A stretch of 12,554 nt of DNA from Deltaproteobacteria bacterium RIFOXYA12_FULL_61_11 (GTDB taxonomy: Bacteria; Bdellovibrionota_F; JAHFAK01; YA12-FULL-61-11): NCBI GenBank assembly GCA_001799195.1, contig MGSU01000097.1, positions 1-12,554 of the forward strand, read 5' to 3'. The translations under genes and the position numbers were made by a program. The notes beneath the pieces were generated by a model. It saw only the letters and a list, made by a program, of their open reading frames with translations. It was not told the origin of the DNA and made no database searches. Positions within the stretch are counted from its first letter, which is position 1, and each line of letters begins with the position of its first letter. Of the stretch, positions 3,383 to 9,044 are shown piece after piece.

Positions 3383-3958
3383 ATGGCCTCTCAACACGGT
3401 ATTCTCTTCCTGATCGCGCTGCTCCTGTGCGGCTGTCTGCAGTCCGATGAGGATACTGGCACGGACACGGCCGATACCTCGACCGACAAGGCGGCGACAG
3501 GGGATCAACCCTTCGCCGGGGTCGTACCTCCCGCCTTCATCAAGGTGACCATCACCGACTGGAACAACCAACACGTCGACCTCGGCGAACTGCGCGGGGA
3601 CCAGCCCGCGCTCGTCGTCTTTATCGGAGCAACCTGTCCGTATTGCGCTGCGTTCCTCGAGCTCATCGCCGAGCACTGGGCGACCTTCGAGGGTCGCTTG
3701 GTGTTCATGATCATCTCCCTGGACGACTCGACCACCACGAAACTCCAGCATCTGCGAAACAAGTTCCCCTTCACCTTCTACATCGACAACCGCGAGATTC
3801 TGGCCGAGAAATACGGCTACATCGGCCAGGTTCCCTATACCGTGTTCATCAATCGCCACGGAAAACTGATCAGGCGTGAGGTCGGGTTCACCGAGGAGAA
3901 CGGCCCCATCTTCCTCCGCCTGTTCGAAGAGGTCATCGCCGACGATACCCCCTTGTGA
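3383..3958 (+). CDS. Thioredoxin-fold (TlpA/redoxin-like) lipoprotein with CPYC active site
   Basis: The 191-residue protein is predicted to be exported and lipid-anchored. MASQHG is followed by the hydrophobic stretch ILFLIALLLCGC, with Cys18 as the likely lipidated residue. Residues 20-48 form an acidic, Thr/Asp-rich linker (DTGTDTADTSTD). The thioredoxin fold follows: DLGELRGDQPALVVFIGATCPYC with the dithiol Cys85-Pro-Tyr-Cys88, then FMIISLDD, FTFYIDN, and the cis-proline loop GQVPYTVFINRHGKL around Pro151. CPYC is the dipeptide found in glutaredoxins, unlike the CxPC of most TlpA proteins. It probably reduces or exchanges disulfides in envelope proteins. The start at ATG 3383 has GGAGGG just upstream; an in-frame TTG at 3356 would spoil the signal peptide. 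Its stop overlaps the start of the CPBP gene, so the two are likely translated together. Confidence 0.87.
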   Translation: MASQHGILFLIALLLCGCLQSDEDTGTDTADTSTDKAATGDQPFAGVVPPAFIKVTITDWNNQHVDLGELRGDQPALVVFIGATCPYCAAFLELIAEHWATFEGRLVFMIISLDDSTTTKLQHLRNKFPFTFYIDNREILAEKYGYIGQVPYTVFINRHGKLIRREVGFTEENGPIFLRLFEEVIADDTPL

Positions 3959-3960
3959 TG
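3955..3960 (+). other. GTGATG stop/start overlap (translational coupling)
   Basis: TGA at 3956-3958 ends the lipoprotein and shares its A with ATG at 3958-3960, the chosen start of the CPBP gene; an in-frame GTG at 3955 is an alternative. No clear Shine-Dalgarno precedes it, so re-initiation by ribosomes finishing the lipoprotein is the likely route. Confidence 0.6.
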
Positions 3961-4671
3961 CTCCGGTCACTGCTCTCGAACCACGTACGAGCCTGGTGGC
4001 GCGAGCTCTCCCCAGAGCATCCTCGGCTCGCACTCGTCGGGGCCATGCTTGTTGCTACGGTCTGTCTGACCCTCTCCCACGACGACGAACTGATCTCCAG
4101 GTTGGTGAAAAGCCTCCCCGGCCTGCGAGGCTTGGCTCCCTTGCGCCCCTATGACCTCTTCGGGTTCCTTGCGCTGTTCGTCCTGCCGATGGGCTACCTG
4201 CTGGTCACCCGGCAGAAACTCACCACGGTCGGGCTCTCGTTTGGCAGGTTGCGCTTCGCCCTGCCGGGTTTCCTCGCTCTGTTCGGCTTCCTCTCGCTGC
4301 TTTCTCTGGGTATCTCGAGGATGGGCTCGTTCCAGGGCTTCTATCATCGAGGCTTGGTCGATTGGTCTGACTGGGGCCTGCTCTTCTGCTCGCACCTCTT
4401 GTTCATGTGGGGTTGGGAGTTCATGAATCGGGGGTTCCTGCTCGGGTTGCTCCGCCCCCGCCTCGGAGTCCTGGCCGTTTATGTGCAACTCCTGCCCTTC
4501 GTACTGCTGCATCTCGGCAAACCGACCTTCGAGCTGTACGGCTCGGTGCTGTTCGGCCTTGCTTTCGGCTACTATGCCTATGTCGCCCGCAGCTTCATCT
4601 ACTGTGCTTTTCTGCACGCCTGGTTCGCCTGGTTCACCGAGGTCCTCATCGCAACAGGGTCAGCCGCCTAG
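3958..4671 (+). CDS. CPBP/CAAX-like intramembrane metalloprotease homologue, variant motifs
   Basis: The 237-residue protein is very hydrophobic, with about six to eight membrane segments (near 24-40, 67-83, 100-118, 139-152, 170-186, 194-213, 214-233). The CPBP pattern is visible but altered. Motif 1, usually EExxxRG, is WEFMNRGFL with Glu154 and Arg158, so the first Glu is Trp153. Motif 2, FxxxH, is FVLLH with His185. Motif 3, usually HxxxN/D, is HAWFA with His220 and Ala at the last place. Thus the second Glu and both His are kept while two polar residues are missing. Canonical members cleave prenylated or membrane substrates, or act as bacteriocin-immunity (Abi) proteins. The activity of this variant is uncertain. 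It is coupled to the thioredoxin-like lipoprotein and ends at a terminator. Confidence 0.78.
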   Translation: MLRSLLSNHVRAWWRELSPEHPRLALVGAMLVATVCLTLSHDDELISRLVKSLPGLRGLAPLRPYDLFGFLALFVLPMGYLLVTRQKLTTVGLSFGRLRFALPGFLALFGFLSLLSLGISRMGSFQGFYHRGLVDWSDWGLLFCSHLLFMWGWEFMNRGFLLGLLRPRLGVLAVYVQLLPFVLLHLGKPTFELYGSVLFGLAFGYYAYVARSFIYCAFLHAWFAWFTEVLIATGSAA

Positions 4672-5343: not shown

Positions 5344-6240
5344 TCAGGGCTCGAGTAGCCCGAGCTGCCTCGCCAAGGAAGCAACCTGGCTGAAACCGTT
5401 GATAAAAGCATGGAGCCAGATGCCATGCCAGAGGTTATGGCTCTTGAAGACCGCGTAGCCGAGCAGCAGCCCGAGCAAGAGCTGTTCTCTTGCCACCGCG
5501 CCGAGCGCGCCGAGGAGCTCCTGATGGAAAGGAGAGGCCCCATTGAGGTAGCGCATCGGCAGATGATAGAGAGCGAAGATCAGCGCCGACAAGCCGACCG
5601 GCAGGATCCAGCGACGATCCGAGCGCACCGATGCGGGGAGTAGGCCGCGGAAGACGAATTCCTCCGGCAGCGCCACGGTGAGGGCCATGGAGGCAATCGA
5701 GAGCAGGAGGAGGAACGGGAAATACCAGTGGGTCGCCAAAGCCTGGATGAGGGAAGCATCCCGTGCCCCGAACACGAGGAGCGGCAGGAGGAACATGGCG
5801 ACGAGCACTGCATCGAGGTTGTTGCGGAAGGGATTACGCCAGTTGAAACCGAGGTTCCCGAGAGGCACGCGGAGCCGGCGTAGCAGGATGACCGGGAGGG
5901 TGAACTGAACCAGCCAGAGCAGCACCATGGAACCGAGGATCGGCACGAACCAGAGCGACAGCAGATAAACAAGGCAGTAAGAGCCCAGTATTATCCTGGT
6001 GTTGGATGGGAGTACCGGCCAAGGTTCGCGCGTGCTTTCCGTCACCCGGTACCGCCACTGGTAATAGAAACCCGGCACGAGCAGGGACAGCGGTAGAGCA
6101 GGGGACCAGGCGGTCTCCGCCACCACGACGCCGAGAGCGTAGAACAGCGCGAGGAGACCGAGTACGGTCCACTCGCTCGGCTTGAGCGAGTGCAGGAGGT
6201 GACGCAAACGGGTGAGTTGGTCTGCGGGGTTTGGGTGCAT
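5344..6240 (-). CDS. CPBP family intramembrane metalloprotease
   Basis: The 298-residue membrane protein has about eight hydrophobic segments (near 24-40, 48-60, 83-99, 103-120, 143-158, 173-190, 211-225, 253-266) and complete CPBP motifs. Motif 1 is LPEEFVFRGLL with Glu193-Glu194 and Arg198, motif 2 is FALYH with His226, and motif 3 is HAFIN with His277 and Asn281. In this family the Glu and His residues coordinate a metal within the membrane. Relatives include CAAX prenyl endopeptidases and bacteriocin self-immunity proteins; the substrate here cannot be read. A 5-residue Gly-rich/Asp-Arg loop (SVRSDRRW) separates motifs 1 and 2. The start is supported by GGAGG six bases upstream. It is read divergently from the PilZ gene and is not close in sequence to the other CPBP protein in the window. 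Confidence 0.92.
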   Translation of the reverse strand: MHPNPADQLTRLRHLLHSLKPSEWTVLGLLALFYALGVVVAETAWSPALPLSLLVPGFYYQWRYRVTESTREPWPVLPSNTRIILGSYCLVYLLSLWFVPILGSMVLLWLVQFTLPVILLRRLRVPLGNLGFNWRNPFRNNLDAVLVAMFLLPLLVFGARDASLIQALATHWYFPFLLLLSIASMALTVALPEEFVFRGLLPASVRSDRRWILPVGLSALIFALYHLPMRYLNGASPFHQELLGALGAVAREQLLLGLLLGYAVFKSHNLWHGIWLHAFINGFSQVASLARQLGLLEP

Positions 6241-7582: not shown

Positions 7583-8149
7583 TCACGCCGACACCGAATG
7601 CACCTCGATGGTCCCCCCGCAATAGACGCTGAAGGTGATCGCGGTTTCCACGGCCTTCCTGGCTAAGGCAGCCGGATCTGCCTGCTCGTCGTAGAGCACG
7701 TGCAGGGCGCCGAGACTGTACGCACAACCCGAGCCGATGGCATGGTAGCGTTCGAACGTGGCCACGCTCATATTGGCCGAAACCGCGAAGATGCCGCTGT
7801 GATTGACGACCAGGAAATCGGAATCGAGGTTGCCGAAGGGGCTGTCGGTCTCGGCGCACTGGTCGTTGACGAAGGCATAGTCCTCGTGCAGGGCCTTCCA
7901 GAAGTCCCGGAAGAACGAGAAGATGGTGAGCTGGTCCGTGAGCGTGGCCCGGCGCAACCGTTTGACGTAATCGAGGAGGATGTCTTGGTAGAGGCTCCAG
8001 CCGGTCATGGCGACGAGGGATTCCCCGATGGTCATGATCTTGTGCGCCTGGTGATTGCGCGGATCCGCGGTCTCGCTGCCCCAGTTCGACTGGGAATCCG
8101 CTGCGATGACGATACCTTTTCCTGTTCGTACGGCGACGGCGATGGACAT
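7583..8149 (-). CDS. Proteasome/HslV-like Ntn hydrolase (peptidase T1-like)
   Basis: The 188-residue protein is close to HslV in length. The N-terminus reads M-S-IAVAVRTGKGIVIAADSQ, the first beta hairpin of proteasome beta/HslV subunits. If Met1 is removed, Ser becomes residue 1, the nucleophile place held by Thr in HslV and the proteasome. Asp falls exactly at mature position 17 (AADSQ), and a Lys at mature 36 (AHKIM) stands for the usual Lys33 after a 3-residue longer loop. Later landmarks are VAMTGW (47-51), SDFLVVNHSGIFAV (110-123) and the IGSG-x-x-YSLGAL turn (138-149). It resembles an uncharacterised bacterial family of single-subunit proteasome homologues with an AADS-x-x-x-x-G start. 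No propeptide, no hslU or other ATPase is adjacent. The start is fixed by GGGGAG six bases upstream and by the position of the fold. Likely cytoplasmic and self-assembling; substrate unknown. Confidence 0.85.
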   Translation of the reverse strand: MSIAVAVRTGKGIVIAADSQSNWGSETADPRNHQAHKIMTIGESLVAMTGWSLYQDILLDYVKRLRRATLTDQLTIFSFFRDFWKALHEDYAFVNDQCAETDSPFGNLDSDFLVVNHSGIFAVSANMSVATFERYHAIGSGCAYSLGALHVLYDEQADPAALARKAVETAITFSVYCGGTIEVHSVSA

Positions 8150-8330
8150 GGTTGCTCCCCGGGGTGAAGGATGACGGCCGGTCACTCTACTCGGTGCGAG
8201 GGGGCCAGGCAAGCAAGGTCGGAGGCAAGAGCAACCGCCAGCCTTTCGAGACCTTCGAGGAAGCGGCACAGGTGGAGACCGTCGGCCACAGCGTGGAGAA
8301 CCTGCGGCAAGACGGGCAGGAAGATCGACC
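8150..8330. promoter_or_regulatory. 181-bp spacer upstream of the Ntn hydrolase gene
   Basis: This non-coding stretch separates two minus-strand genes. The Shine-Dalgarno GGGGAG of the Ntn hydrolase is at its left end. I see no convincing terminator with a T tract and no good -35/-10 pair, so whether the Ntn hydrolase is cotranscribed with 8331-8972 is open. Confidence 0.3.
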
Positions 8331-8972
8331 TCATAGGAGTCCGAGTTCCCCGAGCCTGCGGAAATAAACTGCCCTCTCCCTGACAGGGTCAGTCGGTTCA
8401 CCCGCCAGGACCACAAAGGAGCGTTCCTTCGCCACTTCGGGCAGCATGGGGCGGAAATACAGGTCCATGGTCACTTTCTGACCGGTGCGAGGATGCACGA
8501 GGCGACCGGGATGGCTGCCGTCGGGTTTGAAGTACCGTTCGCGTTCCAGGTCGGCCAAGCATTGCTTGTCGGTCGGTTCGATGAAGAGGTCGAGGTCCTT
8601 GTACGACGTCTCCCCCTTCCATTTCTGCAACCCCTGGGCGGGAGCGCCGGCCGGGAGCTTCCCGCCGATTTTTGCATCGGTCGGCGGCATGTTGTCGTAC
8701 TGAGGATCGACCCGCAGCAGAGCACCCTGGGGATCGAGGAGATAGTGCCTGCCGGAACCGAAGAGGACGACCGCCTTGACACACCTGGCGGGAAAATGTT
8801 TGGCCACGTGTTCGAGAATCTGCTGGACGGTCAAGGGTGCGGCCAGATCGGTGAGGTAGGTGTAGTCCTGATTGCTGCTGGGGCAGGTCAGTCCGTGCTC
8901 TGCCTGCAGCGTACTCGCGAGGAAGAGGAAGGGCAGCGCGAGCACCCAGCCGGGCAGAGGACGGTGGGGCAT
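8331..8972 (-). CDS. Exported protein of unknown function
   Basis: The 213-residue product has a signal peptide (MPHRPLPGW, hydrophobic 10-22, cleavage probably after LQA24). The mature part contains three cysteines (30, 64, 138). It reads as an alpha/beta domain: a helix QQILEHVAKHF, a strand VKAVVLFGSG (66-74), a HYLLDPQGALLRVDP strand pair, a Pro/Gly-rich loop (about 95-118), a strand YKDLDLFIEP (124-133), a helix, then a strand KVTMDLYFRP (166-175). The combination of FGSG, DLDLF and a later MDLYF faintly recalls nucleotidyltransferase-fold carboxylate spacing, but the distance between GSG and DLD is far longer than usual, and the protein is exported. I therefore give no function. The start at 8972 is supported by GAGG about 8 bases upstream and the signal peptide. 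It follows yajD on the same strand after 97 bases. Confidence 0.78.
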   Translation of the reverse strand: MPHRPLPGWVLALPFLFLASTLQAEHGLTCPSSNQDYTYLTDLAAPLTVQQILEHVAKHFPARCVKAVVLFGSGRHYLLDPQGALLRVDPQYDNMPPTDAKIGGKLPAGAPAQGLQKWKGETSYKDLDLFIEPTDKQCLADLERERYFKPDGSHPGRLVHPRTGQKVTMDLYFRPMLPEVAKERSFVVLAGEPTDPVRERAVYFRRLGELGLL

Positions 8973-9044
8973 GTCGGAGACCTCATTTGACGCTATGCAT
9001 CCAACCGAACATAGCACCGAGCGGCCCTTGGGTCAAGATGTGAC

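Follow-up and report, generated by a model that had tools for sequence, protein, structure and literature searches.

This study analyzed a window of 12,554 nucleotides from Deltaproteobacteria bacterium RIFOXYA12_FULL_61_11, in which a proteasome-like protein is encoded on the minus strand. This protein is very probably a Betaproteobacteria proteasome homologue (BPH) of the Ser1 type, and it would work in the manner of that family. BPHs form a tetradecameric double ring of two heptamers, carry Thr1, Asp17, Lys37, Gly50, and Ser139 together with a long acidic pore loop, and have neither a propeptide nor a partner ATPase (Fuchs et al. 2017, PMC5777263). A survey of proteasome homologues assigns them to group I, with Thr1/Ser1, Asp17, and Lys33 as the shared triad (PMC8665760). 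The occurrence of Ser1 in BPHs outside Betaproteobacteria was reported in 2017 (PMC5777263).

Gene start and family assignment

The sequence-only reading had placed the open reading frame exactly and had left its minus strand unstated (Table 1). The GC content by codon position was 0.57/0.44/0.83 within the coding sequence and 0.60/0.75/0.55 in the in-frame stretch that precedes the ATG, where the coding pattern was lost. Together with the ribosome-binding site, these values support the ATG as the start codon. An alternative, longer gene starting at a TTG at 8416 was rejected because its codon composition was wrong and the relatives start at the ATG. The translation begins with MSIAVAV, confirming that Ser follows Met1 and occupies mature position 1. 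The start residue was identical in the window protein and in five of five close relatives, one of which (L038) has in-frame stops directly upstream of its start; these findings argue that a propeptide is absent, in agreement with the earlier claim.

Table 1. Features of the BPH-type gene and its predicted product in the window (residue numbers refer to the mature protein)
Feature	Position	Strand	Remarks
BPH-type proteasome-like gene	7583..8149	(-)	188 aa; ATG at 8149, stop 7583-7585
GGGGAG ribosome-binding site	8155..8160	(-)	5-base spacer to ATG; read from sequence
Ser1 codon, predicted nucleophile after Met removal	8144..8146	(-)	alignment; structural match to 5OVS Thr1
Asp17 codon	8096..8098	(-)	invariant, 22 aligned proteins
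Lys36 codon, equivalent to proteasome Lys33 and Td-BPH Lys37	8039..8041	(-)	invariant, 22 aligned proteins
Gly49 codon, oxyanion-hole Gly (Td-BPH Gly50, proteasome Gly47)	8000..8002	(-)	invariant, 22 aligned proteins
Ser139 codon in GSG, numbered as Td-BPH Ser139	7730..7732	(-)	
Long acidic pore loop AFVNDQCAETDSPFGNLDSDF	7814..7876	(-)	5 acidic, 0 basic; 21 residues vs 9 in an HslV

The window protein matched PF00227 of Pfam above the cut-off, and a phmmer search against the PDB returned the BPHs of Thiobacillus denitrificans and Cupriavidus metallidurans (1.5e-20 and 1.1e-19, respectively; best HslV, 0.0095). These matches exclude a chance similarity, and the gene is real and well conserved. 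The AlphaFold model of the protein had a mean pLDDT of 70.2 and a pTM of 0.74 and was weak at residues 21-34 and 142-151; a second structure model was discarded for its lower pLDDT (65.7). The best fold match of the model was a BPH both in Foldseek (TM 0.79) and in VIA (Z 20.3, rmsd 2.8, 178 residues), and the first non-BPH chain followed at Z 15.4. The structural alignment starts with model residue 2 against residue 1 of 5OVS, so that the predicted Ser1 coincides with the catalytic Thr1. The proteasome fold proposed in the sequence-only reading thus agrees with the PF00227 match and with the similarity of the model to BPH structures. By sequence search and predicted fold, the placement among BPHs is clearly ahead of that among HslV, Anbu, or 20S beta subunits.

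Relatives, pore loop, and gene neighborhood

Relatives were sought in whole genomes and in the contigs of named genomes, a set in which the phylum of the window host is represented by only two genomes. Five close relatives with Ser1 (L014, L015, L018, L019, and L038) were identified in at least three other phyla; their identity is 44-53%, and all of them start with MSIA or MSVA. L014 and L038 come from two genomes of the same phylum, and L014 shares a contig with L017 (candidate division KSB3). L018 belongs to Candidatus Sumerlaeota and L019 to Rhodospirillaceae, and L015 lies at a contig edge. A sample of 398 genomes from the phylum of G283 yielded 11 BPHs (E 9e-76 to 3e-53), with Thr at position 1 in 10 of them and Ser in one (L027). 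The same sample gave six further matches of low significance (E about 1e-11); one of these was translated and proved to be an HslV.

The tree united six Ser1 proteins, including that of the window, in one clade (support 94/94) and placed L027 among Thr1 proteins. The best tree contains two changes between Thr and Ser, of which the well-supported branches by themselves demand only one. L016 and L027 speak neither for nor against the published Ser/Thr split by taxon. A highly divergent Thr1 proteasome-like protein (L002, G030:C35:30207-30761; 27% identity) fitted the BPHs poorly. Its long branch makes its placement in the tree uncertain, and it could belong to another group I family.

The pore loop of the window protein, between H2 and S7, is long and acidic, as is characteristic of a BPH. 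Throughout the Ser1 clade this loop comprises 21-22 residues with the motif SPFG(N/D/E)LD (GPFGNLD in L015), whereas that of Thr1 BPHs comprises 19 residues and typically reads DPYESSQ. It is conceivable, if rather unlikely, that the Ser1 BPHs with an MSIA start, TGW(G/S)LY, and SPFG(N/D)LD constitute a functionally separate subfamily across unrelated phyla, in which the altered pore loop and the Ser nucleophile would act on one specific substrate or in a reaction other than proteolysis, different from that of Thr1 BPHs.

The gene neighbors of L014, L018, L019, L038, and L027 all differed from one another, and the genes of the operons published for BPHs (argG, pyruvate dehydrogenase, and hsp33; PMC5777263) were not matched beside any of these five loci; the context therefore gives no function. 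L027 (1501-2076), a Ser1 BPH starting with MSTIVVV, is flanked by a gene that reads as ribD and one that reads as riboflavin synthase. Within 2.3 kb, the window itself encodes two separate membrane proteins of the Rce1-like type (CAAX protease/CPBP; 3955-4671, plus strand; 5344-6240, minus strand). Upstream of the BPH gene, a minus-strand gene at 8331-9017 encodes a protein whose N-terminus resembles a signal peptide and for which neither Pfam nor NCBIfam gave a match. Single-sequence scans of the genome contig and viral contig collections revealed no relatives, and neither did an alignment scan of the viral contig collection. The plasmid collection likewise contained none, and the gene thus shows no sign of mobility.

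Active site, proposed mechanism, and alternatives

We aligned 22 proteins, including one phage homologue and one HslV, and found Asp17, Lys36, and Gly49 to be invariant. Ser or Thr occupied position 1 in every row with an intact N-terminus, a result in favor of the catalytic role that had been proposed for this residue. The mature numbering of Asp17 and Lys36 given earlier was correct in the window translation, and the invariance of both residues supports the predicted Ser nucleophile with Asp17 and a Lys33 equivalent at position 36. The three-residue longer loop before Lys36 is present as described and is not peculiar to this protein, since the corresponding lysine of the T. denitrificans BPH is Lys37; such a loop is usual among BPHs. 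These comparisons show the residues of the window protein and its predicted fold. Its ring assembly, chemistry, and ATP independence would be those of the BPH family.

Given the known specificity of methionine aminopeptidase, Met is expected to be removed when Ser follows it. By analogy with the family, the most likely mechanism would be that of an ATP-independent compartmental protease, with Ser1 activated by Lys36/Asp17 and the acidic pore loop controlling access. Methionine aminopeptidase would cleave off Met1 and expose Ser1, and the subunits would assemble into a closed double ring that encloses the active sites; in the solved BPHs this ring consists of two heptamers. Asp17 would hold Lys36, which would deprotonate Ser1, and the Ser1 hydroxyl would then attack a peptide bond in a substrate that is unfolded or specifically recognized; water would resolve the resulting ester. 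Gly49 may stabilize the oxyanion, and Ser139 may support Ser1. Instead of a partner ATPase, the long acidic pore loop would gate or select substrates. Removal of Met was detected in Cm-BPH by mass spectrometry, and epoxomicin and MG132 bind the BPH active site, epoxomicin being bound to Thr1 (PMC5777263).

The sequence-only reading had stated that no ATPase or hslU lies nearby. No ATPase gene was found within the window, and none adjoins the BPH gene there; the statement is nevertheless misleading, because another contig of the genome carries hslU (L006, G000:C94:3-1304; 598.8 bits, tail DLSRFVL). In the same assembly, searches with Pfam and an HslV query did not find hslV, and the window protein might on these grounds be taken for the HslV partner of the host HslU. 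We consider this highly improbable. The HslV models gave the window protein 28.9 bits (cut-off 157.75) and 31.7 bits (cut-off 137), and the pore loop is that of a BPH. The assembly is 87% complete, and the contig with hslU begins inside that gene, so that hslV, in its usual position, probably falls into an assembly gap; loss to such a gap is the likeliest explanation. In the nearest relative (G001), hslV lies directly before hslU, and the two genes are also adjacent in G236, G782, G783, and G283; G784 has both on separate contigs. A true HslV accompanies the Ser1 BPH in four genomes (G236, G782, G783, and G784), and the KSB3 genome G236 contains a third, weak HslV-model match (C23:170358-170879, covering positions 1-160 of the model), which may be a further proteasome-like homologue. 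Neither HslV nor HslU was found in G286, from the Ser1 clade (95% complete), or in G422, the genome of L027 (100%), so that HslU is not a requirement for a Ser1 BPH. According to the published work, BPH does not conserve the residues that contact HslU, and HslU was not recovered with BPH in a pull-down (PMC5777263). The host HslU is probably part of a separate HslUV system.

The published BPHs are inert on standard peptides and casein (PMC5777263), and connectase demonstrates that proteasome-like folds can be specific ligases (PMC8665760). The window protein might accordingly be a specific processing enzyme or a connectase-like ligase instead of a degradative protease. This appears quite unlikely, since the subunit is compact and aligns with Td-BPH over 178 residues, and since the closed ring of BPH binds epoxomicin productively (PMC5777263). 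Connectase has lost H1/H2 and has a two-helix insertion between S3 and S4, whereas the window model has helices at 52-64 and 73-90 and no insertion between the strands at 38-41 and 44-50. The inertness of known BPHs could also be read as that of a catalytically dead relic or a structural subunit, and the proteasome works less efficiently with Ser1 than with Thr1 (PMC5777263). Nevertheless, Ser1, Asp17, Lys36, and Gly49 are retained at 44-53% identity over several phyla, which points to selection on the active site and leaves a dead protein very unlikely. A Ser1-type BPH is the reading that we prefer.

Comparison with known systems

The Ser1 variant has been known since 2017, and the find in the window is ordinary apart from its host. 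New here are the host lineage, a Ser1 clade defined by its pore-loop motif, and one Ser1 case outside this clade. The little-studied Ser1 branch of the BPHs thereby gains a member whose phylum has hardly been sampled, and no new class is added. With the clade defined, it becomes possible to test whether Ser1 BPHs differ from the Thr1 BPHs assayed to date, which were inert, in having a detectable substrate.

HslV (ClpQ, CodW) has the fold and the Thr/Ser1-Asp17-Lys33 scheme in common with the window protein, and CodW of Bacillus subtilis likewise uses Ser1 (PMC5777263); the window protein differs in falling far under the curated HslV cut-offs, in its long acidic pore loop, and in not being linked to hslU. 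Anbu shares the proteasome fold (Z 15.3 between the window model and 5NYG). It has a C-terminal helical extension, H5 (PMC8665760), whereas the window protein stops at residue 188, after its last strand (182-187). Homology to the phage proteasome homologue (PPH) is weak: WNL50709.1 of Ruegeria phage RpAliso, which is likely a PPH, is 28.8% identical and, unlike the window protein, starts with MT and is without the pore loop region.

The solved BPHs of T. denitrificans (5OVS/5OVT) and C. metallidurans (5OVU) resemble the window protein in length and in having no propeptide and no adjacent ATPase. They also share Asp17, Lys at 36/37, Gly49/50, Ser139, the long acidic pore loop, and the predicted fold over 178 residues. 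The window protein, at about 30-33% identity to them, has Ser1 instead of Thr1 and a pore loop that is 2-3 residues longer, with SPFGNLD replacing DPYESSQ. The sequence-only reading had seen an unusual, unplaced stand-alone enzyme, a view that gives way to membership in the BPH family, in which Ser1 proteins with no partner ATPase have been published (PMC5777263). Compared by the published description rather than by individual sequences, the Ser1 BPH subfamily (Fuchs et al. 2017, PMC5777263, Fig. S3) revealed no difference from the window protein; both have Ser1, occur outside Betaproteobacteria, and keep the other active-site residues unchanged. The Ser1 residue, the missing propeptide, and the missing ATPase that had drawn attention to this gene are thus the features of a known subfamily (PMC5777263).
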